Assembly (NCBI GenBank): GCA_964035545.1
Contig: CAXIUT010000143.1
Coordinates: 1 to 33,438 of the forward strand
DNA: 33,438 nucleotides
Direction: 5' to 3'
Source: Bugula neritina
Taxonomy: Eukaryota > Bryozoa > Gymnolaemata > Cheilostomatida > Bugulidae
The notes beneath the pieces were generated by a model. It searched no databases. It was not told where the DNA came from and saw only the letters and a program-made list of their open reading frames with translations. The translations under genes and the position numbers were made by a program. Shown piece by piece: positions 568 through 28,660 of the stretch; positions within the stretch are counted from its first letter, which is position 1; each line of letters begins with the position of its first letter.

Positions 568-2344
568 ATGAATTTCAAACAATCTGTGAATATGGATTCA
601 TTAAAGATAGGTTAGAATTCTAAAATAATGAAAAAGTTAGACGCCGGTTGTAATCCTTTTCTTAGACAGAAATAATTTTGCTATCAGCCACCGTTATCAA
701 AATAAATCATGTATAAAAACATCAAGAAAGATCACTAATAGTAACAAGTAAAAATGTAATAAACATGGCCTCACCAAAATCCTACCTTCCCAATAGAATA
801 AAAAGAAAAATACCACTTTATAAAATAACAGGAATAACCTCTAGTCGATATGGAAACTAAGTTGTCCTTCATATAGATGAAGAAGATGACTACAGATTTA
901 TCACCATTAATCTTAAAATGAAATACATATAAATCATAATCAATGCAGTTGGAAAGGCCACCTACAAACCTCTTAACTTCTATGTCTATGATGACCTTTC
1001 ACTCTCTAGTCTGACCACCACTATCGTTGATGTCGGCAAAAATAGAAGAAAAACTCATGCCATCAGTCCCATCATCGTTGATGAACAATATCTAAAGGTA
1101 GTTCTATTTGATTATGCAGACAAATGTCCTATTGAAACCTTAATCTAAAATAGTTTTTAAAAATTAAAGCAGTGATAATGTTAAGAATTTTTAAGAGTTC
1201 AATATAATAAAAGTTCTAGGAAGAGGAGCTTTTGGTAAGGTAATGCTTTGCTAACATTAAAAGACTAAAAAGTTTTATGCAGTCAAATCAATGAGAAAAG
1301 AAGATTTAGTCGATCATGCTACCATGAGAAGAACCAAAACTTAAAGGTTTCTTCTATAAAAAGGTAAAAAGGATATAAATCAGTAAACCATCCTTTCCTT
1401 GTTAAAATGCAATATGCTTTTCAAACCCGTTAGAAAATATTTTTAGTCATGAACTTCTATAGAGGAGGATAAATGTTTTCTAGAATACAAAAATAAAAAT
1501 ATCTCAGCTAAAATAGAACCAAGTTCTATGCAGCTCAAATCTTCCTGGCCATTGAACATTTGCATTAATTGGGATTTGCTTATAGAGACCTAAAACCATA
1601 AAATATTCTATTTGATAGCAATGGATATTTGAAGTTATCTGACTACGGCTTAGCTGTTTAGTTGAAAAAAGGATAAAAAACTAATTCTTTTATTGGAACA
1701 GCAAGCTATCTCAGTATTTAGTCATTTATTCAGGTCCATAAGTCATTCTAAACGAAGGACACAGTTTCACTGTAGACTGGTGGACCTTAGGTGTACTGAT
1801 ATATGAAATGCTATTTGGAGTTCCTCCATTTTTTAGTAGATATCAGAGCTAAATGTTCCAAAAAATAGTAAATCGATAAATTTAATTTCCTAAATAGCCA
1901 AAAATAAGTCCAGAATGCTAGAATATAATAAAAAGACTTCTCAGCAAATATCCTCAAAAACGTTTAGGTTACAATAGTTCTTAATAAATTAAATAGCATA
2001 AGTGGTTTAGAGATATTGACTGGGAAGCATTGCTTGCAAAAAAAGTAAAAATATAAATAATTAAGATTCAGCCATAATTTGTTCCCCAAGCTGTATCTGA
2101 CAGTGATGTCAGTTATTTTATGGATTAGTTTACTAGCTAGAAGCCAGTTGATACTATTGTCAACTTAGATAGTAAGCTTATCAATAGAATGAATAAATAG
2201 TTCAAAGACTTTAATTTTTAAAGAGGATTTTCAGAAGAGTAAATATAAAAAAAAGAATAAAGACCCTTTTCTCTAACAGATATCGCACACGTCTAAAAAG
2301 TATAATCTAGCCACACATCTCCTAGCTTCATAAAAAAACTATGA
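568..2344 (+). CDS. AGC-family Ser/Thr protein kinase with N-terminal PH-like domain
   Basis: Spliced length is 564 residues using introns 650-669, 1098-1119, 1364-1383 and 1714-1733 (20, 22, 20, 20 nt). Residues about 30-150 resemble the PH-like (myosin-TH1-like) domain common in ciliate kinases, with the pattern KxNHxxKxxxRSLIVT and then GITSSRYG. The kinase domain follows: glycine loop GRGAFGKV near residue 203, AVK lysine near 225, GGEMF, YRDLKPEN near 320, DYG in place of DFG near 338, and SPE as the APE motif near 364. The AGC C-terminal tail ends in the hydrophobic motif FKDFNF near 518, where Asn takes the place of the usual phosphorylated Ser/Thr. The YRD form and the tail place it in the AGC group. 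Membrane recruitment through the PH-like part is inference; the substrate is unknown. TAA encodes the Glu of GGE, KPEN and SPE. Confidence 0.93.
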
Positions 2345-2388
2345 ATTATCCTTTTTAAACAATAATCATTAATAATTATCAACCATAA

Positions 2389-2957
2389 TCATTTTTATTC
2401 TATTTTTTTTTGAACAATTTTCATTTGCTCTCTTTGCACCTCTTCTTTTACTTCACTGTTGCCTTTTTAAGCAAAATTATGTAGATTCAGCCATTTTTGT
2501 TCCTACTCAGTCAACTTAGCCCCTGCCTCCTCGATCGCAACTATCATCTTCTTTTTGGTGCCTACGTATTCTCCTTAACTAATGCTTTTCATATTGTATC
2601 TATGATCGAGATCTTTAACCTTGTTTCTTGTTCCTCTGACTTGCTCTTCAAGTAGTTTTCCCACCACTTCTTCCTTGTTAAACTCAGATTTAAAAGCTTC
2701 AAATATTGATCTTTTTGTTTTTTATATCTAAGATTAAAAAACTGAGTTATTAGGGTCTTTCAGCATATTGTTAAGAGAACTTTGAAAAGTATTTAATTCT
2801 GAGATTGTTTCCTGTTTGAGCTAGCTGTACTCTTCTTCAGTTAAATCCTCCTTGTTTTATTCAAGCTCTTTCAACTGATCGAGCAATCTTGATACAGGAC
2901 TTGATACCTTTTGGTTTGTTGCTGCAAATTGTGAATCATTTGTTGACTATTACTCAT
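2389..2957 (-). CDS. LZIC: LZIC-like protein (leucine zipper, ICAT homologous)
   Basis: Spliced length is 182 residues with one 20-nt intron at 2888-2907, which is needed to join the start MSNSQQ to the coiled coil. An N-terminal leucine-zipper coiled coil (LLDQLKELE) is followed by a stretch matching LZIC: LTEEEYSELKQET, an AFK block, then KKKMIVAIEEAGAKLTEQE. In animals LZIC carries a CTNNBIP1/ICAT-like domain; its role in ciliates is unknown. Length is close to the roughly 190 residues of animal LZIC. TAA at 2857-2859 and a nearby TAG sit where animal LZIC has Glu. The gene is convergent with the upstream kinase gene (44 nt apart) and 71 nt downstream of the next minus-strand gene. Confidence 0.85.
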
Positions 2958-3028
2958 AAATGCTATCGATTATATTTAACTCAATTATGTAGTTAAAAAA
3001 TACAATATAACTTCAAATCAGATTCATA

Positions 3029-3496
3029 TCAATAAACTATCGTCCTTAGTTCTTTGTTTCTTTTGAATAGATCAAGTTTTCTTCCTTCTTTGTTATTTCC
3101 TCTACTAGTCAAAAACTTATCTCTTTTCCATGCTGTTGAGGTCTGTTGGAAAAGTGATACTGGGTCTTTTCTTTTTCTTTTAGTTGTTGTATTATTTCTT
3201 ATTTTAACTGTTAAATTTGTAGTTAATTCTTTATTGGGATGTCTTTCAGTAAGATTCTTTTTGCTATAAACTCCAGAAGCATTAGAATGTTTTTTTTATT
3301 TTAGTTTAGGTCTCAAACAAACTGCTTCTTCATCTTCAAGGTCTTGAGAAACATCTAACTTCAAATTCTTATCTTGGAAACGATCAAATTTAGGTTTGGA
3401 ATCAAAAACTTCTGATTTAGGATATTGTTTAGGTACTATCAACTAATCTTCTTCTTCTTATGAAGAACTGAAGTAGTTTTTCTTTTTACTTGACAT
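3029..3496 (-). CDS. Small basic protein of unknown function
   Basis: A single uninterrupted frame of 155 residues under the TGA-only stop code. The N-terminus is Ser/Lys/Glu-rich with an acidic SSSEEEEDE run. The C-terminal third is basic and has a compact block: DPVSLFQ, then AWKRDKFL, then GRKLDLFKR. The spacing of DPV, aromatic, Trp and Arg/Leu residues reminds me of the C-terminal box of the centriole protein HYLS1, but the match is too weak to name it. It lies upstream of the LZIC-like gene on the same strand and 151 nt from the divergent gene at 3648. Confidence 0.75.
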
Positions 3497-3647
3497 TTAA
3501 CTAACTTTATATTTAACAGAACATTTAAAATAATCAATATCTGTCATCTTTTCATTAACATTTATTTATTATCGCTAGTTTTAAAGAAATATGCTTTTAA
3601 TATTGTTGTCATTTAAATTTTCCTTCTTATAATATCAATTAACGTTT

Positions 3648-4135
3648 ATGTATAGGAAGTAGTAAGGTAGAAGTGATCGCTATGACTCAGCTCGCAATAA
3701 CAAATTCGTAGATCATGTTTCTAAATAAATGCCCATGCGTTCTTCTAAACAAAAAAACGTATCTTCCTTTTAACTCAGAGTCGTATCTTTTCTAATTCAA
3801 ATAAAACAGGTCCTAACCATCTAAATGCCTCAGATATCTACTCACAACCACAAATATTATCTCAGCCTCAAGTGCCTAAATCTAGAAGAGGAACCAGTAT
3901 CATGAGAAACAGTTCAAAGTCAAAATATACGGATAGTATGGGAAAATTCAGAAAAGATTTTATCAAGGATGGTTTTGCTAACTTTGACTATGAAGGCAAC
4001 TCAAAAAGAAATATTAAACAAGAGCCCTAAGCAAGCAATGCTATCAATTTTGATTAAGAGATAGGAGTTTAATAATTGCACTATAAAATGGTCAGATTAC
4101 ATCAAAATGTCAGAAAAATGCAATATGATACCTGA
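3648..4135 (+). CDS. Hypothetical protein
   Basis: Spliced length is 155 residues with a 20-nt intron at 3759-3778 that restores the frame between KQKN and SRIFS. The product is rich in Ser, Asn, Gln, Arg and Lys with no recognised domain. The middle carries SKSRRG/SIMRNSSK-type basic-serine motifs that could be phosphosites. The C-terminus turns helical (YKMVRLHENVRKM). The first in-frame TGA ends it just before a 22-nt minisatellite. A longer product joined to the next gene was considered, but no short GT-AG intron links them. Confidence 0.7.
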
Positions 4136-4179
4136 TAATCTTAAATAGCTATCCAAACCTATCAAATTAAATTAATAGA

Positions 4180-4308
4180 CAATATATATTTGATAAACAG
4201 CTAATATATATTTGATAAACAGCTAATATATATTTGATAAACAGCTAATATATATTTGATAAACAGCTAATATATATTTGATAAACAGCTAATATATATT
4301 TGATAAAA
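4180..4308. repeat. 22-nt minisatellite, about six copies
   Basis: Near-perfect tandem copies of a 22-nt AT-rich unit containing TATATATTTGATAAACAG, with slightly divergent first and last copies. The period is not a multiple of three and each copy carries TGA, so the array cannot be translated through. It fills the gap between the genes ending at 4135 and starting at 4346. No GT donor lies inside the unit, so it is not a chain of introns. Confidence 0.95.
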
Positions 4309-4345
4309 GTCAAAAAGGGTAAAAGTGTCAATACTTTCCAACCCC

Positions 4346-6274: not shown

Positions 6275-9200
6275 TCACTTCTGACCAGATATTTTAGGCA
6301 ACTTTATGCTTCCCTTAGCTTTAACCTGTCGTTAAGCCAACTCAATCATCCTCAAAGCCTTAGAATCTTTCTCATTCAGGCTTTTTAAAGCTGCTCCCAA
6401 ACGATATAATGGACTAGTCAAACTCTTTTAAGAAGATCTTTCTATTGCATTTTTTTATTTGACTTTATTAATTGCATATTTAGAAGCGTAGAGGCTACTA
6501 GTTGAAGCATTATGAAATTTATGTTGAGAATTAGCCTTTATTATTTGGGATTGTTAGTCTTCTTCTTTGTTTCTCTACCATCTTTGCTGTAGCTAGACAG
6601 CTTTGTTCAAGTTGAAATCTCTGTTAGAATTATTTTTAACAAGCATCAACTTTTTTGGCTCCTTCTAAAAATTTTGAATACTATCAAGAAGAGCCATCGT
6701 CATTTCTATTGTCTTCCGACTTTCTTCTGCGATTTTTGGATGGAACTTCCAATCTGGGTTAGAAAAAATGTCAATTCTATCATGATAAGGTTCAACCAGA
6801 TTTAAATAAAAAGTTGGATCGAACAATCGTTTGATGTGTTCTTCTTTGGAGTTGGCATTAACAGGTACACTGGTATCTAGAGACTTGATATAGACTGAAT
6901 CATTGTCTTAGTCGAGAAAGAGGATGGGAGGGTTTTGACATTAATGTTGTTTTTAGTTCAATTCAGCTACTTGATTACCATTTTAGCAAGCAATTAGTAG
7001 TATTCTGTTAGCTCCAGAAAGAGCTATAATGACATCTTAACTTTCTATCAAATAAATATCTCTAATGCTCTATCCGAAGTTATTTTTCCAAATATGTCTA
7101 ATAATATGTGTATTTTAATGATCTTCAGCTCCCTATGTGATAATTTATTCATTAAGCCAAAAACAAAGAATTTATCCATTTTAGAATCCAATATAGCAAC
7201 GTTTATTTTTGTGACTCATAGCTACGCTATTTATTTTAACATTTTATTGTTAGCTAACTAAGTGACAAGAAGGTTTAAATTTTTTAACGTGAGGGGGAAG
7301 ATACAATCCAAAAACTTAGGCCTTTTTACTAAACGACAACAAAATCATTTCTTACTAGAAGGCAATAAACTTTTATATTTATCCAGCTTTAGTTTAGCAC
7401 TGACTAATCATTTTGTTTTTATCGATATCCATAAAAAATATTTATCCTGTATTTGTTCCAATGATAAGAGTATTTCTTTTATGTTGATAGTATAAACAGG
7501 TCATGTTAGCGTTTTGAGATAGTTTTCTTATAGATATATTTCTAAAATGAGTAAAATCTCCATTAGAATCTTTCTAGAAGATAGCCACATCGCCATCAGC
7601 TGAAGCACTAAATATCATCTTGCCCTATCTCAACTCCTAAACCAACACAAAGGTCACATTCAACTTATGCTTATACAACTTCTTCACCAAAACACCATTG
7701 TCCAACTTCCTTAAATACAAATTACCCTCCACATCTCCTAGTACTCCCAATCGACTTGTCACAAACATGTCAAAAGCACTGATCTCCCCAGGTATCTGAT
7801 TTCTCAAAGTATTAGCAATACTTCCTGTCAAAAGATCCCAAGCTACGATATGATTCTTAATAGGAGTAAACAAAACAAAAGAAGCAGGATGGTACTTCAG
7901 GCCCAAAGCACTAGAATCATTGACAACATTAGCATCTATGTGAATATATTAATATGCAATAACTCCAAAACCACCAAAAAAGTATCTCAAAGGACTAGCA
8001 TTGGACACCATACAGATAGGTTATATTTTTTGTTAGTGTTTATCAATTGAAAAAGAGCTAACTAGTGAAAACTTATTAATCTATCTAATTTTGATATTAG
8101 ATTCAACATCTAAGGCGATAAGCAAGTTAGTATCTGGAATGATATCTAGTTGTATAAAATTGACATTGCTTATTATTTTGTGAATCAAACTTTGAATATA
8201 AGGGTTCCATACACAGATAGAGTGGTCATAAGCCGAAGTAAACAATAAAATCAAACCTTCATGAAATGCCATACTAGATATTGAACGAGTATGCTCCTTG
8301 TATTTGAATTTTTTAGTTTGAGATATCGTATCCCAAAGAATCAGCTTGCCATCGTATCCTCCAGTAGCCAAAAATTGTAACTTAGGCATCATTATCATCG
8401 ACGATATCATCTAAGTATGGCCATCAGGATCATGCAACTATCTCTATGAGTCAGTTTTAACCATCCACTGATAAATCACAGGAGCTTTCCCGCAACAATA
8501 AAGTATTTAGTTGACGTTGTCCCAAGCCATAGTATGAATCTCATTAGGAAACTGATGATGCATCTTTTAGTCTTCATTTTCAGGCTGTCTAGCTAAAGAA
8601 GGTATATTCGATGATATGTCCCAACCTCGGATCATGAAATCTGTACTACTAGTAATCAACATATCATATTTGTTGTCATTGATATATATCATATCCAGTA
8701 TTAGGGGTTGGGGTTGGGGTTGGGGTTGGGGTTGGGGTTGGGGTTGGGGTTGGGGTTGGGTTGGGGTTGGGGCTATCGAAGTACTCACTGATAAAGATTG
8801 ATGGCTCAATATCAATGTCTTCATGCTCGCCTGAGAACCATCAGTATTATAAAAATTAATTTCATTTGACTCTTAAGTAAATAATGCTATTTTATTGCCT
8901 ACATTTACCATCTTCTGAACCTGGCTTCCATGCTTATTCATTGTTCCATTTAAAGTTAGTTGCTTCATAAGAGCAGTATTCCCAGGCTACTGATTACGCA
9001 AACTTTTAAGATTAAGTCCTTTCTCTATTAACATGCTATTAAACTGATTCCAAGTGATAAAGCCCTTGCCATTGGAGTCAGCTTCTTGAAACAACCTATT
9101 CAAACTATGATGAATCTTCTCGTTTCTATATTTGAGGTCTTTTTGCCAGGATTTAAGGTGTTTCAAGCCTTGAGCAATAAACTCTTTCTGGGAAAGTTGG

Positions 9201-9286
9201 TTATCATAACGCTAAAATGCATCTTTGAAGAATCCTAAGATATACTTATCTATGTTAATAGCTAGGTTTGTAGTTAGTTTATCCAT
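6275..9286 (-). CDS. EF-hand and WD40-repeat protein, WDR49/WDR64-like
   Basis: A single intronless frame of 1003 residues, unusual here because most long genes have 20-nt introns. The N-terminus has EF-hand-like segments; the clearest loop starts at D70 (DSNGKGFITW), but its twelfth position is Gln instead of Glu, so calcium binding may be weak. From about residue 200 to 700 there are many WD40 blades, with markers such as ATGGYDGKLILWD, SAYDHSICVWN and SASADGDVAIF. The C-terminal 250 residues are basic and probably disordered. EF-hand plus long WD40 arrays is the architecture of the WDR49/WDR64 group, which is largely restricted to ciliated organisms; a ciliary role is inference. Residues about 172-194 are Pro-Gln repeats encoded by a telomeric repeat tract. 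Confidence 0.92.
8704..8772. repeat. Interstitial telomeric tract inside a coding sequence
   Basis: 69 nt of TTGGGG on the + strand, so CCCCAA on the coding strand of the EF-hand/WD40 gene. Two hexamers encode 12 bases and therefore stay in frame, giving alternating Pro-Gln. One five-base unit (TTGGG) at about 8756-8760 shifts the internal register, so the first residues read Pro-Thr before the rest reads Pro-Gln. Both flanks are in the correct frame for the WD40 protein. Confidence 0.97.
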
Positions 9287-9419
9287 TTAGTGATTGATTT
9301 TACTAAAAGAAGAGCGAGGAGAGTAGATAGGAGTATAACAAGCCTATTTGGGAAGATCTATGTAGTTCATCAAAGTTATATTATTCCAAATATGCTATCT
9401 AAGTTATATTATTCCAGAT

Positions 9420-9482
9420 GGGGTTGGGGTTGGGGTTGGGGTTGGGGTTGGGGTTGGGGTTGGGGTTGGGGTTGGGGTTGGG
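9420..9482. repeat. Interstitial telomeric tract in a divergent promoter
   Basis: About 10.5 perfect TTGGGG units on the + strand, between the start codons at 9286 (minus gene) and 9547 (plus gene). It begins 133 nt upstream of the EF-hand/WD40 start and ends 64 nt before the PIP-kinase start. Immediately to its left the 16-mer AAGTTATATTATTCCA occurs twice. It can be read as Gly-Trp repeats on the + strand, but that frame shows no gene. Confidence 0.97.
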
Positions 9483-9546
9483 AATAAAGGGTTATTTTGT
9501 ATGAATAGACTCTTTTGTAGTTTCTAAGTTATAATCGTTCAGAATT

Positions 9547-11907
9547 ATGAATTGCTTTACAGGCTGCTTTTCGAAGCACCACAACAATCAATAAAAAATA
9601 ATTATCAACAGGCTTACCAACTTGCCCATGAACTTCACCTCCAACGAAATCAATTAACTTGAAAAAAGGTATCTCTCTTTCTATCAAGATTTATGAAAGT
9701 TTCCAACAACAACAAATAAATCACACTCAATATTTTCAAAAAAAATATGGGAATTCTAGGACTTCATTGTTCTCAAGAGTTTTCATAACGACTCTTTAAC
9801 GCCTTTGACCTTGACAATGATAACAAAGTACTTTTTGATCTATCTAGATTGATTTCAGGGACTTTGTCTAGTATATGTACATTCTGAAAGGCAATAATGA
9901 CAGTCACAAAGCTAGAATATCTTTCAAAATGATCGTCCCTCCTAAAACATCCATCATCACAAAAGACATTTTCAAGAAATTTTTAAGTGACTTTTTTGTT
10001 TCTTGGTCTTTCGTCACCAACATCGACATCACTGAAGATATGACTGAAAGAACCAATAAATATATAGATTTCCTATTTAAAAAGGTATAAAAAGATACAG
10101 GAAAACCATAAATCAATCTTAAATACTATATCACCACTCTCTACAAGGATAAAGACTATATGGAATCATTTTAATTCATCACACATGGAATGGCAGATAT
10201 TTTTATCAGCTAAAAAAGCAACGATCCAGAAACAGTTCTCTTCAAAATCATAAAACAACTTCATTAAATAAAATAAACTGTTTTCTAAATGAGCAACGAT
10301 TAATCTTATCTCTACTAGCCAGTTAGATTTTAGTAGAATCCTCATACTCTACCAACATTTGAAGCTCCTTTGTTCAAAAAACCAAAAAATAATAAAACAG
10401 AACAAGCTAAATACAGAAAATAAAATAATTATACTTTCACTAAAACACACAAAACTTTCTTTTCAAATGTTACCGATTAAAGACAAAGAGTGTTTGAACC
10501 TAGTGATACTCATTCAGGAACGAAATCAAATAATATTTTTTATTAAGAAAAAAAATGGTAAGCTAAATAGCTACTTGAAAACAGCAAGATAGCAGCTTTA
10601 GAAAAAAAACTTAAATTTATAGATTAAAAAATAGATAAGATTGTGCAGTAGACAAAAGTAATGTACGAATCAATGAAAGCTAAGTTTTAAAAGAAAAAAG
10701 AATTTAAAAGTAGAGGTGGATAGGCAGCTCAAAATGTCCATAAAAGAATTAGAACTTAAGGTGATATGGTATTCATTGGCGATTAAAATTGGAATCTTGT
10801 TCTAAATATGATGATAGGCATCCAAATGGCTGTCAGAAGTATCAAAGGACTCCAATAAATTATATGCGAATAGCCTAAAGATTTCGGATTAAAGTATAAC
10901 TTTGAGTTAATTCCTAGAAAATTTGGAAATTAAAACTCAAATTCTACCATCTATTCGTTCACTGACTATGCTCCAAACACATTCAACCACATCAGAAAAA
11001 CATTTAATATTGATAATGAATAGTATATCAATAGTATCGGTCCAAGTAAACTGATGGCTTCTCTCATGATGGGTGAAGTCAGCTCAATGACCTCACTAAC
11101 CAGTCAAGGAAAAAGTGGATCTTTCTTCTACTACACAGCAGATGGCAAATATACACTCAAAACTATTCAACATCGATAATACAAATTTTTGAGATCCATT
11201 CTTGAAGATTACTATTACTACATCAAGAAAAATCCCAATACTCTCATAACTAAATTTTTTGGACTTCATAAACTCATATAAAAAAATTAGAATGGAATAG
11301 AAACAGGTAGAAGCTACTTCATCATCATGGCCAATGTCTTTAATACCAGGGAAAAAGTCATAGAAAGATATGATATTAAAGGCTCATGGTACGGAAGATA
11401 AACTAATGATACTGATCCTTTGGCGACAAAAAAAGATAACGACTTCAAAAAGAGATAACCTGTTCTCCTAGCTTAATAAGATAGAAAAAAACTCCTTTTG
11501 ACAATAAAGAAAGACGTGTAGTTCTTCGAGCAGCACTAAATAATCGATTATTCTCTTTTAGTAGGAGTTATAAAAAAATCTGATAACCTCAGTGACATCA
11601 GTGAAGGTCGATTCTAGTCAAGAATTTTCTAAGAAGGTCCTCCCTTCAGAGACAGTAACATTTACTTCGCAGATTTTTAAAGCTCAGAAGGATATATATT
11701 CGGTATAATCGATATTCTGACCCTTTACGAGTAAGAAATATTTTATTTAGTTCAAGAAAAGTTTTAGAATACTATTTTAAAAGACTTGTCTATGGCTAAG
11801 GCATCTCAGCAGTCCCACCAGAACAATATGCAGAACGATTCTACAACTTTATTTAGAAAAGCGTGTTTGTTTCAAATGAAATTCAAGATAAAAAACTATT
11901 ACGGTGA
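9547..11907 (+). CDS. Phosphatidylinositol-4-phosphate 5-kinase fused to an N-terminal EF-hand (NCS-like) domain
   Basis: Spliced length is 766 residues with three 20-nt introns (9669-9688, 9871-9890, 11731-11750); each is needed to keep the conserved domains in frame. Residues 1 to about 215 resemble neuronal calcium sensor proteins: ERLFNAFDLDND with a good EF-loop start, then further helical pairs. A charged linker (about 300-400) follows. The lipid-kinase domain has the glycine-rich GKSGSFFYYT near residue 508, an HRQYKFL helix, YDIKGSWYGR (the DLKGS-type motif) near 594, IIDYSLLVGV near 651, FGIIDILTLYD near 704 and the specificity loop ISAVPPEQYAERF near 734. It should phosphorylate PI4P to PI(4,5)P2 at membranes, possibly under calcium control. 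Plasmodium PIP5K has a similar NCS-like domain, so the fusion may be old in alveolates. Confidence 0.93.
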
Positions 11908-11995
11908 GTGTTTATTATTTTTTATATGATTTATCTTAATAAGCTACAATAATTTTTATTGATTTTATTATTTTTTCCACAAAATAATAAAGAAA

Positions 11996-12949: not shown

Positions 12950-14209
12950 TCATTATTTATGATGTAAAAGCAATCCATACAACCCCTCAACTATATTCTC
13001 ATTTGCCAACACCAGCTACATTAATTTCTAAAAATCAAGTTTTTTAAAATCTTATAGAGATACTGGGTTGCCTTCCTTATAAAAGTTAATTGAAGAAATA
13101 TCTTTACGTCTAGTTATATCTTTCTTTATTATTTCAATGCACTTGGCAAAGTAACCTGATACCTCCTGGCGTTTGTTATACTTATAAGATTGTTTTTGAA
13201 TATATTCTCTATCTATATTCGTCTGACCTACCATATTTCTAGAATTCTATCCGTAATCAACAGTGTAGTTTGATTTACTTCTGACACTATTTCTAGAAAA
13301 TCTCTCTATTTTTACATTTCCTTTTGAATTGTTCTCTGTCCTGGAGAATATCTTCCTCTGAAACTCACCAAAAACCTCTGAAACTGCTCTCATTACCTCA
13401 TTCAACATATCTGTATCCAAATAGTTGAGTTTTACTCTCAACTTCCTTGTAAATAACTAGCTTTCTGAATGTACTCCTAGATCCTTAGAAGTAGAGTATA
13501 GAGCACTTTTAGGAGGAGCTATATGAACATGATTAGCTGTAGCTTTTGAAATATTAGCCGAAGTTAGAGTAGTTCTATTTTTATTTCTCATGTAAGTATT
13601 TTTGAATGATCCTGGATTCAAAAGACTAACATCATATTTTTGAGTAAAGTCTTGTTCTTCATTGACTTGATTTTTCTTTTAGAGTTCCATTTCTAATTGT
13701 TTGTTTCTTTTATTTAGGACTTTCAAAGATTCTTAGGTAAATTTTTTATCAGAAGTCATTTCCTCTATTTTGAGTCTCATTTATTAAATTTATCTATCCT
13801 TGCTGACCAACTTCTAAAATATTCTTAAAGACTAATCTCTAAAAATTGATAATTTCTTTTCCAAATATTCAATTATTTATTCATAGCTATTGGAACTACT
13901 AGCCTGAGCCTGAGATTCTCTCTTCAAATCTTACATCTCTTTCTTAACCAAATAAATATGAGTTTTATATGCATTTAGTATTTAAGCTTAGTTCTTTTAG
14001 ACTTTGTTATGAACTGTCTTTTCTAGCTATTCAATATATCGGTTCAGCTGATTATGATTTTGTTTGATTTATTAAAAATTATTATCGATATTTCTCTGAG
14101 TAAGAAACAACTATTTAGACCTATTTTTCGTGACAGGACTTAAAGTACTATCCTCTAGTGATGCATCTCTCAAGTTGACTGTTTTCAGTTAACTCGAACG
14201 TATGTACAT
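12950..14209 (-). CDS. Coiled-coil protein of unknown function
   Basis: An uninterrupted 419-residue frame. Residues about 45-190 form a long coiled coil (NHNQLNRYIEELEKTVHNKV and similar heptads). A Ser/Asn-rich linker follows, then a globular-looking helical domain from about 265 (LNYLDTDMLNEVMRAVSEVF) to the end (LVLANENIVEGLYGLLLHHKE). The arrangement suggests a cytoskeletal or centriolar structural protein, but I do not recognise the family. Its start codon lies 43 nt downstream of the end of the docking-complex gene on the same strand. Confidence 0.85.
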
Positions 14210-14252
14210 CGATAAATAATAATATAACAGATGAATGATGAATATCAAAGTA

Positions 14253-15878
14253 TCATTTCTTCTTAGGACGAATTTATTTCTTCTTCTGTTTCTGACTTTG
14301 CTATTTCTAAATTAATATAAATATACAGAGATAAAGTCTGCAGCTTTTCGACGCAACTCTTCCATAGATAAAATCTTATCGTACTCCTAGTTATCCTAAA
14401 AGTCTTCAAATGTCAACAAAGCAGGTTGAGCAGACCCAAGTCTGTTTTGCTGAGCACCACTAAGCATATTTGGATTTGATAAACGGTTAAATGTTTCCAC
14501 TATCGATACTGCCTTGTGTTCAATTACAGCCAAAAATACTAATAAGTTGGTTTCTGAAATAGACTTAGTGCCTCCTATCTCCTTCACCACCTCACGATCA
14601 CACTCTATTGTCTAAAATATCCTCTATATTAGACCCATTATTGATTTGGCATCTTTTTGATAAGTCCTGTATTTCCCTTCAATGTCTTTAAGATTGGCTT
14701 ACACTGACTTCAGATGAGTTTCCATTTCTTGTAGATACTTTTCTTTTGAGTTGGAAGAATGTTCTTGATGTTCTGCTTCTTCTTCTTTCAGTTTGGCGAC
14801 TTAGAACTCCAACTATTCAATCTAATTACTTTGCAAGTTAACAAATTTAAACATTTGGAAATTTTTCTCTTCATTTCTGCTAAATATTCTCAACAACTAA
14901 TCAAAGTTATCTATCTCAGTTGCTGCTTATATCTTTGCAAAATCTTATCTAAATTTTTGGATCTTTTCCATTTGTTCTGAACTCTTTTTTGTTTGTCTGA
15001 ATAATAGTGGAAATACTTAACAAATTTTGCTTGAGTAGGTTGTGGTTCTTAGATGGCTGAATGATGATGTGAGATATCTTAGTGATTTTTTCCTACTTTT
15101 TTAGCATAAGATGATAATTTAATTTTTTCCATAAGATGACTAATTTCTTTGATTTATTTTTAGAAATCAATTCCTTCTTTTTTCGCTTGAGTTTTCAAAG
15201 AACTCATTTGATTATTAGCTTTATCTCTATCTTAATAGGCATTATTAGCTTTTTCAATAATATCAGCCATTTTTTTTCTTTTTTAGTGTAGTTAGTTTTA
15301 TAATTTTTTATATAAGTTATCAAAAATAACTCTTTATTTTCTTAAACTATCAATAACTAACTTTAGATCTTTATTGACAGCAATGGTTTAATTAAATTTT
15401 TGATTGGCTTTATCTAATCTATTTTATAAAATTTTAATTTGTTTTTGAAGATTATTTAAATTCTATGCTCCAGAATTAATTCCTAAACAATTCTTTTTCT
15501 TTTAAATAATTTTCTTTTGAAAATTACCAATATGAACTTCTATATTTTTTTGAGTTTCTTTTTCTTCTTGAATAGCATTCGATATTTAATTTAAAAATTA
15601 TTTCATCGATTAGGAATTAAGTCCATGTTTAGATTAGTTGTTCTTTTCATTGTTTATTTTGGCCTATATTAAATAAAAAATACTATTAATTCTTTAAGAG
15701 CATCATTTTATTTTTTAAGCTTATCAATAGATAATTTCTGTTTCTTTATGAAGTTAATAGTCTCTTAGGCAAACAATTTTTTATCTGTCTCTAAATTTCT
15801 AAACTTCTTTTGTTGTTCAAACAACTTCTACTGCTTCTTTTTCAACTCCTACTGGTCCATCAACTCATCATTTAGCAT
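14253..15878 (-). CDS. ODAD1: Outer dynein arm docking complex subunit (ODAD1/CCDC114, Chlamydomonas DC2-like)
   Basis: Spliced length is 521 residues with three 20-nt introns (14307-14326, 14997-15016, 15664-15683). The protein is nearly all coiled coil. Family-like landmarks are LRKERVIFDNLYKKLE in the first third and TEIDNFDELLRIF, NEEKNFEMFKFVN and LQSNEIEELE in the middle, matching the conserved core of CCDC114/CCDC63/DC2 proteins that anchor outer dynein arms to the axonemal doublet. The C-terminus is short and Lys/Gln-rich. Reading TAA/TAG as Glu gives NEIEELE as in relatives. Its promoter region carries a 117-nt telomeric tract. It is convergent with nothing and shares a divergent spacer with the carboxypeptidase gene. 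Confidence 0.9.
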
Positions 15879-15934: not shown

Positions 15935-16153
<219 letters not shown>

Positions 16154-16287: not shown

Positions 16288-18552
16288 ATGAATGAAAAGC
16301 AATCGAATTGCAACAAGTCTTTCAAAGCATTTTTCTACATCAATTCAGTTAAAGTATATTTCACTGGTGATTTTGATTCGGGGAATCTATAAAAAGCCTA
16401 ACAACTTTCTCCTTATACAGTATATCTCAAATAACTGAGTATAGACTAACTCCAGGATTCGATAAACATAACTAAACAACAAAAAAGAATTTCTTTCACT
16501 TCCAAGTCCAAGGATTCAAACAATGCACAGTCAAATTTCAAATTACAAGATGCTTTATCCTAGAACATCTCATTAAAGTACTTAAATCAACATTTAGTAT
16601 AAATTGTAAAATAACTATCATCCAGTAGTTAAGAAAACATCTTAATCTCCTTTCCAAAAAACAAATAAAAATGTATAAATATACGTAAATCACATTGATA
16701 TACAGTACAATGCCTATAAAGAACCAGAACTTAGCTTTCAATACGAATTTCAAAACGAAAGTAAAGTCTAATTTGCATTCACATATCCCTACTCATATTC
16801 TGATAACCAAAAACTCATCAAAGAACTCTAATAAAAGTATTGCTTTCATTCCAATATCTACTTTCATCGATAAGTTCTCAGCAGAACCAATGCAGGCAGA
16901 AGTCTAGATCTACTGACTATTACAGATATTGATAACTGCAAAGATCAAAGACAACCTCGAATAGAAGGCATACTTGAATAGTATTAAAGACCATTTCAGA
17001 TCAATAGACCCACCATTCTCATTTCAGCTAGAGTGCATCCAGGAGAAACTCCTTCTTCTTTTTGTATGGAAGGAATCCTCAAATTCCTTCTCAACTAAAA
17101 TGATTTCAGATCAGCTCTTTTGAGAAAATACTTTCACTTCATTCTCATTCCCATGGTCAATCCTGATGGAGTTTATCAAGGAATGTTCAGAAATGACCTC
17201 AACGGAGACAACCTGAACAGACTTTACAAACATTTCGATCCTTAAAAACAGTATCTCTCCTATAATTAAGTAAAACTATCTGGAGTATTACGAAATACTT
17301 GAATTCACTATAAAAGATAGATTTCTTTTTCGACCTGCATGCTCATCCGTCTCTGAAAAGATTTTTTATCTATGGAAATTCTTTTGAGGAATTTACTTAC
17401 CAAGTAGAAGCCCAACTCTTTGGAAAGCTAGTTGAATTTAACTGCCCTTACTTTTAAAACTTTGATTCCATATTTACATAGAGAGCAATGAAATCTAAAG
17501 ACAAATTTGACGATCATAACAAGTAAGGATGTGCACGTGTGTACTACCACAAAAAATACAAAATAATTCATTCATATACAGTCTAGTGTGGCTACTTTTT
17601 TCCTACGAAATTAAATCAATTTTAGAAGCAAATAAATTCAGGGTAGTCAAAATTTTATAGTTATACTTCTGATTGGTAAAATTGTCAACTTGACTAATAT
17701 GGTCCATAATCATATATGTTACTAGGTAAAAGTTTATTAGTATCAATTTTGGATTTATTCCAAATAAATCCCTACTCAAGAGTGGGTCCTTGTCATTACT
17801 AGATCGTAAATGGTTTGAGGAAAACAATTGCTCAAAAATTATTTAGTTAATCATAAAAATATCGACTTAAAGATAGAATAAGTTATAAAAGAATTAATTA
17901 AATTACTAATCTAATCTATGATAAATATTATAGATAAAGACTTTAAAAATATAATCTTACTGTCAAATAAATAACTAAATTATAAAAATAAAAAATCATC
18001 AATATACACTCTCTTTAAGCAGATCTAGTTCAAATAGTCAAAAAGAAAAGTAGCATTACACAATAAAACAAATCAAATATTATTAACTAAGATAAAATAT
18101 TAAATAATTAATAAGATAAAGAATAAAATGATAATTTTCATCGACAATTGTTATCTTCTTTCTCAAAATATAACAAAAAACATGTTCTTAAACCGATTGA
18201 TAAGAAAGTAACTAACACCATCAAAATCAGAAAAATAAAAACTATGGAAACTTAAGAACATAATCAAAGATACAATAAAAGCTTCAAAATAAAAACAGAT
18301 CACTCATAGTAATCTCCAATCAAAAAAGTATAAAAATAAGTACTCAATAAAATACTCAAATCTAATGTTAGAGGACCAATCTACTCATAAAAAAAACTAT
18401 AAATTAGAAACATCTACCTCAAAAAAGATCCATAAGATTTCAAATAAGTTTTCCTTAACAACCTCAACAATCGATTTCCTTATCTAAAAAGTCCTCAAAA
18501 AATAAAAGCTCTTAGTCCTCTTAAAAAATCAAAAAAATAACTCCATCTCTGA
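16288..18552 (+). CDS. Cytosolic carboxypeptidase (M14D, CCP5/AGBL5-like), tubulin deglutamylase candidate
   Basis: Spliced length is 734 residues with three 20-nt introns (16420-16439, 16578-16597, 17251-17270). The N-terminal beta domain has FDSGNL and FFHFQVQGF, as in CCPs. The zinc carboxypeptidase domain shows HPGE near residue 237 (two zinc ligands), NPDGV, GDNLNRLY, DLHAH near 331 (third zinc ligand) and YTVEC near 413, whose Glu, encoded by TAG at 17584-17586, is the expected catalytic base. CCPs trim glutamates from tubulin tails and fit a ciliated cell. After the catalytic domain comes a Lys-rich, probably disordered extension of about 270 residues that is much more basic than the enzyme part. 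The LSRTNAGRSLDLLTIT block points to the CCP5 branch, but this is not certain. Confidence 0.93.
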
Positions 18553-22777: not shown

Positions 22778-25291
22778 ATGCTGTAAGTAAATGAAAACTA
22801 GCTCGAAGTCTATAGCTGCACCTTCAAACTCATACTGAGTAAAGCACTCATAGCACTAAAAGTCAAAGGTTCACAGTTTTATATCGAATGGAAAATCAAA
22901 AGGTAGGGAACAATCTGTAAAACTTAACTAGAAACTATGGATAACTTTGGAGCTGTCAAGTTTAATCAATAGCTGAAACTTCATACTGAAGTCTTGAAGA
23001 ATATCAGTATGAATAAATTTCTAAAAAAATATGCTCAGATCACTCTCTTTCTAATTTCCAGTAGACAACAATACCGTCCTAAAATAGTGGGAAGCATTCT
23101 TATTAACCTTCATTAAATACTCAACGAAGACAAGTACTCAAAACTCAAAGAAAGGAGACTTACTTTTTCTTCTGTCAATGTTGATTTATAATTCATGTGT
23201 GAAGTGACTGAGTGCAGTAAGTCTTCCATTTTATAAGCCAACCTATAATCAGCTCTTCATGCTGAAGAAGATTTTCTCATGATAGGAAAGGGAAATATTA
23301 GAAGTTTTAGCAGTAGAGATTTGAGTTTTATAAAGAAAAAAATCACCAAATAATATCTAGCTTAAGAGGACGATACTGTGAGTAAGGGAGATTACTCAAT
23401 GATTCAGCCAGATTTCTAAGATACTGCTAGTTGTATTGAAATTCCAAAATAAAATAGAGGACTTAGCTACTCTAATATTCAAATTCTATAAATTGACTAG
23501 AATGAAGAGATTCGTTTGAAGGTTGGAGATAATCGAGGTGTTGGAGATTTATTAAGAGAAAATATGAACTTAAGGAGATTATTGGTGATATCAAAAAGCT
23601 AAAGAAATATATAGATGGACCGATTAGAAGATGAATTAAGAGAACTTGCACACTAGTTAGCTCTTAAAGAGGCAGAAATAATGAAAATATAAGAAAATAA
23701 AGAAACAGGAGATCTAAAAGTAGGCTAACTTCTAGATTAAGTCAATGGATCAGCCTAAAAAATAACTAAAATGGTAAAGTAAAATTAATCTCTTCTTTAA
23801 AAGCTAAATATATAAAAACAAGTCAGTTTCCAGCTTTAATAAAATTATAAACGACTTTAAACAAGACTTTAAGTTGTAAAAGATTGGTAAAAAGAGAGAA
23901 TCAACCTTTTAGCTCGTATAAAGGACCTTTAAGATGAAAATTAAACATTAAAATTAAAATATTTTGATCTCTAAAATAAATCTCACATAAGTGAAGAACA
24001 AAACTAGAAGCTAAACAGTGATATGAAGATTAGACTGTAAGGATTGAATAATGAGTTAACAAAGAAAGATCAAATAATAAGTTTATATGAATAAAAAGTA
24101 AATAAATTTTAAGAATAAATATCCCAAATTCAAGAATAGTAAATAGTACATCGAGTGTAATATACATCAAAATCAGATGATATATTAAATATTTCTTCTC
24201 CATAGTCTAAAAAGCTATCTCGAAATAAAAATTCTAATATGATAAATCAGAAAAGTTTAAAGAAGATAAGTTAAGAATAGCTATAATAAAGTTGTAATTA
24301 AGACTAGCAGTAGTTTACAACAGCTGAAGAATTACCTTGCAGCGGATAATCTGATTTTTATCGAAATATGGTCAAAAATATTCAATAATAACTGGACCAT
24401 CAAAAAAGAATATATAGATAAAAATAGGATGTTTTATTAAAGTAAAACAAAAGAAGTAAAAGCCTTTTTGACTAACTATAAAGACTCAGATTTGAATTTG
24501 TTTATGAGCTTAGTAAAGTAACATCAATGCTGAATCAAAAAGTATTATAAATAAGATAACTTAAATAGTAAAATATAAAATTAAAATCAAAAGATGTCGT
24601 ATCTTTTTAAAATAAAATATCTTATCTCTAAAATTAGATTAATGTTTTGCAAGATCAGAAATTATAATATTTTGATAAATCGTATCGACTATAAGAATAA
24701 AATATCGCCCTTATCCACTTGAACTACCAAAAATAAGATATTTATCAATCTATTCTCAAAAACTAATAACCTTTTGAAGGCGATATCTTAGTCAAAAAGT
24801 TCTAATAAATAGTCAAAATCATGCTCAACAGCAAAGATAAATACCTATAAACAATATCGAAATATGGCTTATCTTTATAAAATAATAGAAAAGTCAAAAG
24901 TCAATAAAATATTAGCTAAATAATAAATAAATTTAGTTTATAAGCAAATCATATTTCAGATTCATAAAGCAATTCTAACTCAATCAGAGAGCAATAACTA
25001 TTGCTTTAGTCTACAGCCAGAGTCAGAACTGATCCCTTTGAAATAAACTCAATTCCCTTAATTCTCAATCAAATGAGCAGCTAGTTACATGAGCTCAAAG
25101 CATAAAGATAAAAAGGAATACCTCTATTGAAAGAACTAGTTGCCAAATCATCAGTAATCTATAATTAACAACCACTATTACAACATGTCATCCAAAAGTT
25201 AAAAAAAAGTATCATAGCTAACTGTCCACAAAACAAAAGACAAGATCTCATAATACTAGTTAAATAACTATAAACTAATCTATGTCAATGA
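22778..25291 (+). CDS. NT-C2 domain coiled-coil protein
   Basis: An uninterrupted 837-residue frame with no intron. Residues about 8-155 form an N-terminal C2 (NT-C2/EEIG1-type) beta domain: CTFKLILSKALIALKVKG, SQFYIEWK, KYAQITLFLISS, KIVGSILINLHQIL. The rest is long coiled coil, interrupted near residue 470 by a Ser/Lys-rich stretch and ending in a helical tail (LLKELVAKSSVI). NT-C2 proteins with long coiled coils occur in cytoskeletal and centrosomal contexts and probably bind membranes or small GTPases through the C2 part. Apart from that I cannot name it. The start ATG at 22778 is the first after the TGA ending the previous gene. Confidence 0.85.
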
Positions 25292-25370
25292 TAATTCAAT
25301 TTCTTTATTTATAATTATTATTAACTATAACAGTTTTATTTAAATTATTCTAAAGGTATATTATAATAAG

Positions 25371-26047
25371 ATGGCCTTCGAGTTTAAAAACAAAAAATAA
25401 AAATAAACCATCTCAATCAATAACATCCTCTTATGGGTCAATCATCTCCTCAATGTACTCACTTAGCTATCCAGTTAAATCTCACAAAAATATAATAACT
25501 TGGCTCAGGAGCCATCTACTGTCATATATTTTCACTTGTACACCCAGGAGTCATTACCATGAATAAAGTCAACTGGAAAGCCAAAAGCTAGCACGAATTC
25601 ATAGATAATCTCAAACTATTACAAAATGGGTTTTCAAAAGTAGGCATCAAAAGGCCTTTATAACCAATCAAACTAGCAAAAGCGAAAGTTCCTGATAACT
25701 TTGAACTAACAGTTTGGCTAAGACGGTACTACTACGAACAATGCATCGACACAGACACAGATAGTACAGTCAACACTCCTGTCCCGTCAAAAGCAGACTT
25801 CAGTTTTGCTCAGAAAAAAATAATCCCTAAACATTTGACTCCGAACACCAACAGAGAAGAAGCCCTCTGTGAATGCTGTATTCGAAGTGAAAGAGAACGA
25901 CTCATAATGAAGAATATTTAGGTTTTAAAAGTCAAGTTTTAAATGATTAGATAAACATTGCAAAGCGGTTAATCTGCTGAGGACAAAGTTACTATAATCG
26001 AGGAAGTTGTTCAGCTGTAATACTCTAACTTAATAGATAAAATATGA
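25371..26047 (+). CDS. EB1-family microtubule plus-end binding protein
   Basis: Spliced length is 218 residues with one 20-nt intron at 25455-25474. Residues about 10-115 are a calponin-homology domain with EB1-type landmarks: ILLWVNHLLNLNLTKIEELGSG split across the intron, GAIYCHIFSLVHPG, KVNWKAKSEHEFIDNLKLL and NFELTVWLRRYY. The linker is short. The C-terminal helix (CECCIRSERERLIMKNI) stands where the EB dimerisation domain lies but has two Cys and is less conserved. The acidic EEY/F tail of animal EB1 is absent (ends SNLIDKI). The expected role is tracking of growing microtubule ends and basal body or ciliary tip function. Confidence 0.92.
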
Positions 26048-26094
26048 ACAATAAAAGATTAAAAAAGACTATTTTGATATTTATATTTCTTTGA

Positions 26095-26735
26095 TCAAAC
26101 AGTTCTTCCATAGAAGACTGTAGTACTTTTCCAGTGATCTTTTGTTTTGGTGGGATTGGTGTTCAAAGGATCTTTTAAACAAAGAGCATACTTTCCTTTA
26201 CTACAATAATGAATCAATCCACATTTTTTCTTGTCTCTTTAATTAGTTGCTTTATATCGTTCAATGCATCAGCAAATGTTTCATTTTTTATCTGAAAATC
26301 GAGATCTCCGCCAGTCATGTCCAATCCTCCAACCATGTAATAGTCATTTTCCTTATCTATATGGCTTTCGTCTAATTTTATTTTGTATTTAGATTGATCA
26401 CTTATTTGGCTATGTTTATTATTTTCTTTGTTTTATACTAGTCTTCGTCCATAAAATACATTAGTACATTGAGGTCCGTACTTTTTATCTTGAGATGGAT
26501 TACAGTTAATTTTGACTTTCAAAAATATCAAAAATGAGCCCTATTTTTCTTTGAAAATTGTTCCACATAGATTTTAGTCATAGTTTATTTTCATTTTGAT
26601 GGCTATTAGAGCTTCCTAGAAAGTAGAAAAACCTTTCTAACTTTAAATATCTCCTCCGTACATATCAAAACCAGAAACCTAGAAATACCCATGTTCGATT
26701 CCATAACTCTTCACTATTTAAGATTTATCTTCCAT
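26095..26735 (-). CDS. Protein with a duplicated PAN/Apple-like module, frame broken in the second copy
   Basis: The product holds two copies of one module. Each has a core like GYFQVSGFDMYGGDI or YYMVGGLDMTGGDL, a helix (FQEALIAIK; FADALNDIK), a Cys-Gly pair, a beta strand and a closing VFYGR. The first copy is intact. In the second the frame stops at TGA 26214-26216, but one base back the missing half continues (KCGLIHYCSKGKYALC to TTVFYGRTV) to TGA 26095-26097. The slip lies in a six-A run (26224-26229). With one base added the length is exactly 213 codons. The module recalls PAN/Apple domains, but that is tentative and no signal peptide is seen. ATG 26735 avoids overlap with the neighbouring gene; ATG 26777 is an alternative. 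Confidence 0.7.
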
Positions 26736-26760
26736 ATAATATAAAATACAATGAAATCTA

Positions 26761-27833
26761 TCATTAAAGTTGATCATTCTACTTACATCTTTCCACCATA
26801 ATTAGCAAATCACTCGCATGCCGCTTGATTTTTATCTTCTCACACTCCAGCTAGTCCAATTTGTTCTAGTATATCTTCTTCATCTTCTGTAAATCACTCA
26901 ATCTCGACTAAAAAGACACAAATTATGCCTTGTAATAAGTCAGCTATCGTTTCATTTAGGCATTCTACTTCATCAATCCCTCTTTTAGCAACTATTCTCC
27001 TTTGAGATGAGCTTCAAGAGTCCTTTGCTTATGCCGGTACTAAGATAAGTTCTTTTATTGTTCTTTTATAGTTTCTTCTAGCACTTTTTTCTATGAAAGA
27101 ATCATTATATTAGATGATCTTACTTGCTAAATATTAGAATTCAACTTATTCTTTTCCTATGTATGAGATCTGATCAATTTATCTTATTTTTTGGAAGTCT
27201 ATTGAATAAAGTGATGAAGTTTATTTTAGATTTGTTATATTTTATCTTTTAGTTAATAATTTTATTTTTAAACTTCTTAAAATTCTTCTTTATAGTTATT
27301 TTACTATGTTTAAATGTGATCACATTGCGTTTATCCTTCTTCTATTAAGATTTATTTAGTTTGAGTTGAAGATTCTTTTTTTATCTTTATTAATACAGCT
27401 GATGTACTTTATTTGATTCTAGATATTTATTTTGATAAATCTTTTGAAATAGTATCTTGTCTATTAGTAAAGAAAGTCCCCATTACTTATTTTTTTAAAC
27501 TTTTTATACTTTTTTTGTTTCATTCACCTGAGATCCAATCAAAGATAGATGATTATTTTTATCTTTTATTAAATTTTTCTTTTAGTAAAGCATACTCTTA
27601 CTTCTTTTTTGTTTTGATGAAGTTTTTTTTTTGGTATTAAAAAAGGAGTGAGGTATTTTATAGTGTATTTAATCATTAGGTAGATTTTATTTTTATTTTT
27701 GAGGTACATCTTTATTATTTCTTTTAATTTTATGTTGAGATTGAAATCCATTTTTAGAACTACTTTTATTAACTTCCATTTTCGTATTACTTTTATTCAT
27801 TCCTAAAGAATTATTTCTCTGCAACTTTTTCAT
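26761..27833 (-). CDS. Coiled-coil protein of unknown function
   Basis: Spliced length is 348 residues with one 26-nt intron at 27461-27486 (GTAATGG to ATAG), chosen because it alone joins the two long open frames and makes the length divisible by three. The first third is basic and Lys/Asn/Ser-rich and probably disordered. From about residue 120 the protein is a continuous coiled coil (KDLSKEISRIKES, then HLKGEELLKEGLMKENAEMKREL). No family was recognised. It ends 25 nt before the start used for the downstream minus-strand gene. Confidence 0.72.
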
Positions 27834-27871
27834 CAATTATTTACTATTAAAATTATAAACTATACTCATTA

Positions 27872-27936
27872 TCATAACATCAAACATCATAACATCATAA
27901 CATCATAACATCATAACATCATAACATCATATATCA
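27872..27936. repeat. 8-nt tandem repeat in an intergenic spacer
   Basis: Six to seven copies of ATAACATC, followed by short ATATC runs, in the spacer 27834-28051 between two minus-strand genes. Nothing else was seen in that spacer. Confidence 0.85.
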
Positions 27937-28051
27937 TATATCATGCTCATGATTATAAAATCAGAATATCATAATACTCATAGTTAGTGATAAATAAATA
28001 CTAAAATAACAGCTATCGAATCAGCTAACTTTGTTTTTGATTTTGATTTCT

Positions 28052-28660
28052 TCAATATCCATTTATGCAAGTTGTTTCTGAAGCACTAATCAATTGAATA
28101 ACACTCATTATTTTTTTAATCACAAATAGCATAGTTCCTATCCGAATAGTAAGAATAGTGTATTTTATCCCAATTGACTCAAATTTAAATTATCTTTGAA
28201 TTTAAGTAAATACCCACTCAGTAGAAATAGTTAATTTCCCAGGACTAGTGTAAATAACACTGGTTTACTTCCATAGTAGATGTTAAGCAGGGCATACTTG
28301 GATTGAGATTGTTTGTGATGCGCACCTTTTAACAAACTTACATACATCTGGTACCAATGAGAAACCAAATCTAGTGCTATATCTCCCAAAAACACCCAGT
28401 TATACTCTGGATAAATAGAAGCCATAATAGCTAAAAAGACAGCATTAGAAGCCCTATCGCAAACCATATCCAGAACAGCTCCAAATCTAGTAGATTGATT
28501 AAAGTGACGAGCAGCCATCCCGTCAAATGCATCCAAAGCCTGACTTGTCCCATAAAATACAACAGTTAGAATAGGCTGATCAAGATAAGGTAAAGAAAGT
28601 AGCAAATAATGCCACAAATCTAAGATAGCCGATTATGTTGGGAACAAAAAGAAATACCAT
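28052..28660 (-). CDS. PIS1: Phosphatidylinositol synthase (CDP-diacylglycerol-inositol 3-phosphatidyltransferase), frame shift near the N-terminus
   Basis: This is a CDP-alcohol phosphatidyltransferase. The full catalytic signature is present: D-x2-D-G-x2-A-R-x8-G-x3-D-x3-D (LDAFDGMAAR, then G..LD...D). Other family blocks are VFLFVPNIIGYLRF at the start, YYGSKPVLFT, GNELF (TAA as Glu) and KKIMSVIQLISA in the last membrane segment. A 20-nt intron lies at 28194-28213. The N-terminal exon reads into TCT-TGA at about 28580-28585, while the rest is in the +1 frame; skipping one base makes 195 codons and a gap-free alignment length to human PIS between VPN and LDAFDG. It makes PI from CDP-DAG and inositol in ER membranes. 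It may be a sequencing indel or a +1 programmed frameshift. Confidence 0.87.

Follow-up and report, generated by a model that had tools for sequence, protein, structure and literature searches.

Which amino acid do TAA and TAG specify in the genes of a 33,438-base contig (CAXIUT010000143.1) filed within an assembly of the bryozoan Bugula neritina (GCA_964035545.1; 215.8 Mb in 295 contigs), and from which organism does this contig come? We refer to this whole stretch, at its full length, as the window. An earlier note, based on the letters of the window, proposed that its genes use both codons for glutamate (Glu) and not for glutamine (Gln), that TGA is their only stop, and that this code is the one known from peritrich ciliates (NCBI table 30). 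Our analysis indicates that the window is almost certainly a macronuclear contig of a ciliate in whose cytosol UAA and UAG are both read as Glu and only UGA terminates translation; the ciliate is probably an oligohymenophorean and, within that class, most likely a peritrich. The finding is a well-supported further example of a known rare code, not a new code, and it is borne out by conserved columns of some 45 genes from one assembly.

Codon meaning in conserved columns

The codon content of conserved columns was determined for 41 kinase domains of the ciliate (10,310 codons), chosen by rank among the small-contig matches from 130 kinase matches in the assembly. Matches on contigs C1 to C8 and C194, as well as lower-ranked small-contig matches (including seven that contain TGA), were left out. 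The domains were aligned with TAA and TAG (together TAR, where R is A or G) masked, and raw codons were counted for each column. The domain pieces had been found as open matches, which is a mild selection, and the motif names (helix-C, hinge, APE, VAIK, and DLKP) are our own assignments. These kinases hold 312 TAA, 145 TAG, and 0 TGA codons. The conserved Glu of helix-C is encoded by TAA in 15 and by TAG in 9 (24 of the 41 kinases), that of the hinge by TAA in 9 and by TAG in 10, and that of the APE motif by TAA in 15 and by TAG in 3 (18 of 41), with CAG and CAA occurring there once each. TAA and TAG together make up 457 of the 894 Glu codons across the set, and neither is found at the lysine (Lys) of VAIK or DLKP in any of the 41 kinases.

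A comparison with external relatives was made for four proteins from the same assembly, namely the release factor eRF1, an Aurora-type kinase, and two alpha-tubulins. From the best 120 matches per search, 115 references were used for eRF1, 115 for Aurora, and 99 for both alpha-tubulins; 35 of 36 TAA codons (one was dropped for low coverage) and all 13 TAG codons could be scored. For pooled TAA, Glu is the best assignment, and Asp, Gln, and Lys are worse by 57, 65, and 68 log10 units. Glu is likewise best for pooled TAG, where the runner-up, Asp, is worse by 27 log10 units. In columns that are at least 80% conserved, Glu faces TAA in 16 of 19 cases (P, V, and S account for the rest) and TAG in 9 of 9. 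Columns that are at least 80% Gln hold 26 CAR codons and no TAR; TAA is likewise absent from those that are at least 80% Lys, where 52 AAR codons occur. All nine control codons (GAA, GAG, CAA, CAG, AAA, AAG, GAT, AAT, and TAT) were assigned correctly. In eRF1, all 115 relatives carry Glu at six of the TAR columns; one of these columns presumably corresponds to Glu55 in the numbering of human eRF1. In the alpha-tubulin on contig C16, nine of ten TAR sites face Glu in a solved alpha-tubulin and the tenth faces Ser. The relatives of Aurora, eRF1, and the alpha-tubulin on contig C78 were retrieved with TAR preset as Glu. This introduces a slight bias, which cannot account for columns where every one of 115 relatives has Glu.

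Two kinases were also scored against the Pfam Pkinase model under five codes. Reading TAA and TAG as Glu/Glu gave the highest score in both (274.2 and 260.4 bits), ahead of Lys/Glu (271.3 and 254.2 bits) and Gln/Gln (264.0 and 251.7 bits). The masked kinase columns, the four proteins compared with external relatives, and the Pkinase scores all bear out the proposal that TAA and TAG encode Glu, and conserved columns favor Glu for both codons with no overall preference for Gln.

The assignments of Gln to both codons, of Lys to UAA, and of Gln or Lys to UAG alone were ruled out by scoring. A separate, self-consistent inference from the kinases alone ranked Glu top for both codons, the runner-up Lys trailing by 48 log10 units for TAA and by 24 for TAG, and was set aside. 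It misassigned nine of 15 control codons (GAA, for example, to Lys), because masking a codon strips most of its amino acid from the columns. We therefore rely on the external-reference test and the raw column counts.

Termination, release factor, and source of the window

Open reading frames (ORFs) delimited by TGA are uninformative as to whether TGA is the sole stop. The role of TGA is upheld instead by its absence from the 10,310 kinase codons and by its presence at the ends of the genes for eRF1, alpha-tubulin, and beta-tubulin. The last residues of eRF1 are the same as those of a relative (P0121), and the tubulins stop where proteins of this kind are presumed to end. In the alpha-tubulin gene on C78, a sense TAA lies 6 codons upstream of the TGA stop, so TAR does not act as a position-dependent stop in this gene. 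A beta-tubulin gene (contig C10, locus L108) has no TAA or TAG at all, unlike the other ciliate genes that were translated; highly expressed genes may avoid TAR.

The eRF1 gene lies on the minus strand of contig C288 (L050:2540-3850). In its product the GTS motif is one residue short, with the gap aligned at Thr32, and TASNIKS is replaced by RASQIKD. Among the 62 of the best 120 relatives used for alignment and tree building, the Thr32-aligned residue is missing in four (P0121, P0123, P0152, and P0175), GTS is kept in 53, and five are truncated at this point. The ciliate eRF1 forms a clade with these four and with the truncated P0176 (support 1.0), apart from Tetrahymena. One member, P0175, is an eRF1 that carries the label "LOW QUALITY PROTEIN" and a seahorse name ("Hippocampus zoster..."), and it is probably a ciliate contaminant of the seahorse assembly. 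Excerpts of two papers report that Thr32 contacts the third base of UAG (PMC5304391) and that the GTS loop matters for stop specificity (PMC4698671). The deletion might underlie termination at UGA only. A literature search turned up no earlier report of this eRF1 deletion; the eRF1 alignment figures of PMC4967479 lay outside its coverage, and we do not claim novelty.

The assembly is a mixture. Contigs C1 to C9 are large (10.9-35.6 Mb for eight lengths), and 14 of the 16 kinase rows on C1 to C8 are free of stops, while in-frame TAA or TAG occurs in all small-contig kinase matches except two on C194. Given stop-free kinases on large contigs and TAA- or TAG-bearing kinases on small ones, the window comes from a ciliate that lives on or in the animal or was sequenced with it, and it represents one end of a chromosome. 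A telomere forms the left end of the window; none was found at the right end.

The C4A2 telomere marks Oligohymenophorea, and the genera under table 30 include Vorticella, Opisthonecta, Campanella, and Carchesium. Sanchez-Silva (2003) reportedly described UAR as Glu in peritrichs, and Chen et al. (2020) are said to have treated peritrich stop codon usage. The code found here matches table 30 ("peritrich nuclei"), as the earlier note held; its peritrich attribution is one that we infer from the telomere and the code together with those named matches that have the highest identity. In two of three protein searches, those named matches are oligohymenophorean (Ichthyophthirius for Aurora and Tetrahymena for eRF1), and the alpha-tubulin list is headed by long animal entries. 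No named peritrich appears among the best 120 matches for any of the three.

The reading of UAR as Glu in peritrichs is established in the portions of PMC11687900 and PMC10553269 consulted. UAA and UAG are Glu and UGA is stop both there and here, with no difference in code, and the present ciliate is known from contigs within an animal-like assembly. The uncultured oligohymenophorean PL0344, as described in part of PMC10553269, shares UAG as Glu, UGA as stop, and tRNAs with the anticodon CUA, but its UAA is Lys. Table 6, used by Tetrahymena and others, likewise makes UAA and UAG sense codons and UGA the sole stop, but with Gln in the place of Glu. Blastocrithidia also reads UAA and UAG as Glu, but according to excerpts of PMC12153298 its UGA is Trp and its UAA also serves as a stop. 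A UGA-for-Trp code of this type does not fit the ciliate, since no in-frame TGA occurs in the 41 kinases and TGA ends eRF1.

Transfer RNAs and rival explanations

Two tRNA genes with the anticodon CUA were found on contigs C10 and C236 (L080, 1469-1540; L082, 1490-1561). ARAGORN labels them tRNA-Pyl. Contig C236 bears a TAR-rich kinase and the C10 stretch bears a 430-codon ORF with 24 TAR, which makes both tRNAs ciliate. They are 75% identical to one another. For tRNAs with the anticodon UUA, strict and relaxed patterns were run over the assembly. Of the 14 strict matches, four are host tRNA-Lys genes and ten were passed to ARAGORN, which called no tRNA in seven and ordinary tRNAs at the place on contig C196; those on contig C65 are two near-identical tRNA genes whose anticodon ("ta") was left unset, and these look mitochondrial and were not counted. 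Three of the 19 relaxed matches, on small contigs, were taken to ARAGORN and gave no tRNA. Two patterns for tRNA-Gln found no such gene of the ciliate. Comparison genes for tRNA-Gln and tRNA-Glu on C2 and C9 are ones that we take to be animal.

Several observations weigh against Glu as the meaning of both codons. The bodies of the CUA tRNAs match the ciliate tRNA-Glu(UUC) at no more than 57.5% and 49.3% identity. They are closer to two animal tRNA-Gln (61.1-64.9% and 56.9-60.8%), and when more tRNAs are compared, an animal tRNA-Lys comes closest to L080 (69.3%) and a tRNA-Ile to L082 (63.5%). No tRNA with a UUA anticodon was found by either pattern, an absence that is weak because the ciliate assembly may be incomplete. 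Of the tRNAs expected under the Glu code, the searches produced two with CUA and none with UUA. As to columns, a non-Glu residue leads 5 of the 17 scored TAR columns in eRF1 and 5 of 15 in Aurora. Among the kinases, TAA occurs three times in Gln-led columns (beside 17 CAA, 11 CAG, and 2 GAA), four times in Lys-led columns (beside 15 AAA, 4 AAG, and 3 GAA), and three times in Asn-led columns. Two other Pfam models prefer different codes: PF07714 scored Lys/Glu above Glu/Glu for kinase L002 (158.8 versus 157.7), and PF14531 scored Gln/Gln higher in both kinases. Finally, the seven small-contig kinase matches that contain TGA lie outside the 41 analyzed.

That UAA and UAG are Gln, as in table 6, would agree with the commonest ciliate code and with the Gln code inferred for the ancestor of Oligohymenophorea in the portion of PMC10553269 consulted. 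The CUA tRNA bodies are also marginally nearer to animal tRNA-Gln than to tRNA-Glu, with L080 nearer still to animal tRNA-Lys. Against this stand the deficit of 65 log10 units for Gln at TAA, the lack of TAR in columns that are at least 80% Gln, and the loss of conserved Glu residues in the kinases and in a carboxypeptidase of the window, and we consider such a code exceedingly improbable. The PL0344 code (UAA as Lys, UAG as Glu) is known from one uncultured oligohymenophorean, according to the same excerpts, and one Lys-led kinase column does contain four TAA. Its probability is nevertheless close to nil, the lowest of all, given that Lys falls 68 log10 units below Glu for TAA, that columns at least 80% Lys offer 52 AAR codons and no TAA, and that none of the 41 kinases has TAR at the Lys of VAIK or DLKP. 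In PL0344, moreover, tRNA-Glu is the closest match of every one of the ten CUA tRNAs (69-93%; PMC10553269, in the part consulted), whereas the two here are not Glu-like. Mixed decoding, in which the codons would mostly give Glu and partly another residue such as Gln through tRNAs derived from another kind, would accommodate CUA tRNAs that are little like the ciliate tRNA-Glu(UUC), and a Gln-then-Glu order has been proposed for peritrichs (PMC10553269, same portion). It is very unlikely, however, because conserved Glu positions readily take TAR (457 of the 894 Glu codons in the kinases), so that misreading, if frequent, would be costly, and because the excess likeness to tRNA-Gln over tRNA-Glu amounts to a few bases of 72, with tRNA-Lys nearer for L080.

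Whether a non-peritrich oligohymenophorean gained the same code independently is a separate matter. The named matches to Ichthyophthirius and Tetrahymena, and the want of a named peritrich among the best 120 alpha-tubulin matches, speak for it. The grouping of eRF1 with four relatives apart from Tetrahymena speaks against it, as does the sample of PMC10553269, in which, so far as the consulted part goes, UAR as Glu is found in Peritrichia with an inferred single origin. We regard an independent gain as improbable.

Under the table 30 code, Glu would be charged onto the CUA tRNAs and onto UUA tRNAs that escaped detection, and an eRF1 altered at its GTS and NIKS motifs would cease to compete at UAA and UAG yet still read UGA. 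The identities of the tRNA bodies settle nothing about the amino acid with which the CUA tRNAs would be charged. A more specific scenario embeds the code change in eRF1 (loss of the Thr32-aligned residue and (R/K)ASQIKD for TASNIKS), with UAG tRNA bodies that do not derive from the ciliate's own tRNA-Glu, perhaps coming from Gln- or Lys-type suppressors, and with the synthetase bringing in Glu while the old tRNAs were retained. We view this scenario as unlikely, the more so because an animal tRNA-Lys is nearer than tRNA-Gln to one of the CUA tRNAs. The deletion in eRF1, like the CUA tRNAs, is a concrete, testable part of how UAA and UAG may have been freed and reassigned to Glu, a step that is inferred but not explained in the portions of the literature covered here. 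In practical terms, gene finders set to the standard or the common ciliate code would break or mistranslate these genes in the assembly.

Genes, introns, and repeats of the window

All eight TAA or TAG codons cited in the earlier note are present in the frame and context given there, and they are listed with the genes that carry them (Table 1). Its count of 24 complete genes was not reproduced: a codon-usage scan gave 20 coding segments, an undercount because the scan missed the kinase and the phosphatidylinositol (PI) synthase.

Table 1. Features of the window with strand and supporting evidence
Feature	Position	Strand	Evidence or context
Telomere (CCCCAA)n, 13.5 copies	1..81	+	left contig end; sequence and tandem repeat finder
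AGC-type protein kinase with Pkinase_C tail	1015..2344	+	Pfam Pkinase, Pkinase_C; spliced reading
Kinase exons	to 1363; 1384-1713; 1734-2344	+	5' start not fixed
TAA at Glu of TERFLL, kinase	1342..1344	+	in-frame context T[TAA]RFLL
20-nucleotide GT..AG intron, kinase	1364..1383	+	frame joining
TAA at GGE, kinase	1470..1472	+	GG[TAA]MFS; aligned RSK residue is Asp (GGD)
TAA at KPEN, kinase catalytic loop	1599..1601	+	KP[TAA]NIL; RSK alignment
20-nucleotide GT..AG intron, kinase	1714..1733	+	frame joining, giving ASYLSPEVIL
TAA at Glu of APE motif (SPE here), kinase	1739..1741	+	P[TAA]VIL; spliced reading
TAA in LEEN, unnamed coding ORF	2857..2859	-	LE[TAA]NKED
WD40-repeat protein ORF	6275..9538	-	Pfam; 29 TAA and 18 TAG in frame
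Phosphatidylinositol phosphate kinase	9839..11929	+	Pfam PIP5K, 195 bits; PDB PI5P4K
ODAD1-like coiled-coil protein, two ORFs	12950..15702	-	Pfam ODAD1_CC in both
Cytosolic carboxypeptidase (CCP; M14, CCP5-like)	16439..18552	+	Pfam Peptidase_M14; PDB 8v3m/8v3q
CCP exons	16439-17250; about 17271-18552	+	
TAA at HRE, CCP	16871..16873	+	HR[TAA]VLS
Candidate 20-nucleotide intron, CCP	17251..17270	+	32- and 35-nucleotide alternatives also leave the frame open
TAG at SYTVEC, CCP	17584..17586	+	YTV[TAG]CGYF; catalytic Glu in the earlier note
PI synthase-like CDP-alcohol phosphatidyltransferase	28120..28719	-	Pfam CDP-OH_P_transf, 46.1 bits
TAA at GNELF, PI synthase	28231..28233	-	GN[TAA]LFL

The kinase ORF at 1176-1796 aligns with ribosomal S6 kinases (RSK/PKA; 1e-36), and the gene becomes a single continuous AGC kinase once its two 20-nucleotide introns are removed. 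The Glu that had been assigned to an APE motif is indeed encoded by TAA, but the motif after splicing is SPE. For the CCP, a guess of a 23-nucleotide intron proved wrong and was replaced by the 20-nucleotide candidate. Spacings of GTA...NAG in the window have their maximum at 20 nucleotides (66, versus 31-55 at other lengths). In 155 kb of ciliate sequence there are 261 at 20, the next count is 244 at 31, and most lie near 200; a reversed control gave no peak at 20 nucleotides.

The CCP aligns with human CCP5 (PDB 8v3m/8v3q; 5e-20), and both aligned chain sequences have Ala facing the TAG at the proposed catalytic Glu; we take these chains for catalytic mutants. The name LZIC, given earlier to the gene with the LEEN codon, was not confirmed, as no Pfam family was found for 2392-3012 or 3029-3634. 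The phosphatidylinositol phosphate kinase contains 28 TAA and 14 TAG in frame. Further Pfam-supported genes in the window carry HMG-box, NT-C2, and CH domains.

Interstitial GGGGTT arrays occur in the window at 8704-8772, 9419-9482, and 16015-16131, all in the same orientation, and probably sit between genes. The 5' part of the WD40 ORF, which spans two of them, is probably not all coding. Further arrays lie at L063 1621-1690 and L064 192-242, within contigs C171 and C257; the nearest contig end is some 22 kb away in the first and some 3 kb in the second. The arrays in the window and at these two loci comprise 10.7-19.5 copies, and they could be genuine internal telomere repeats or joins at alternative chromosome ends. 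The window also holds tandem 22-base units at 32315-32515 (9.2 copies) and 4181-4307 (5.8 copies), with 98-100% matches.

Two other contigs stand out by their tRNAs. Contig C65 (70.6 kb), in addition to the two copies whose anticodon ARAGORN did not set, has a 71-nucleotide tRNA with a UCA anticodon, presumably too short for tRNA-Sec, and probably represents the mitochondrial genome of the ciliate, in which UGA would be Trp. Contig C196 (65 kb; locus L045) has 13 tRNA genes in about 4 kb and looks organellar or bacterial, perhaps from a third organism.

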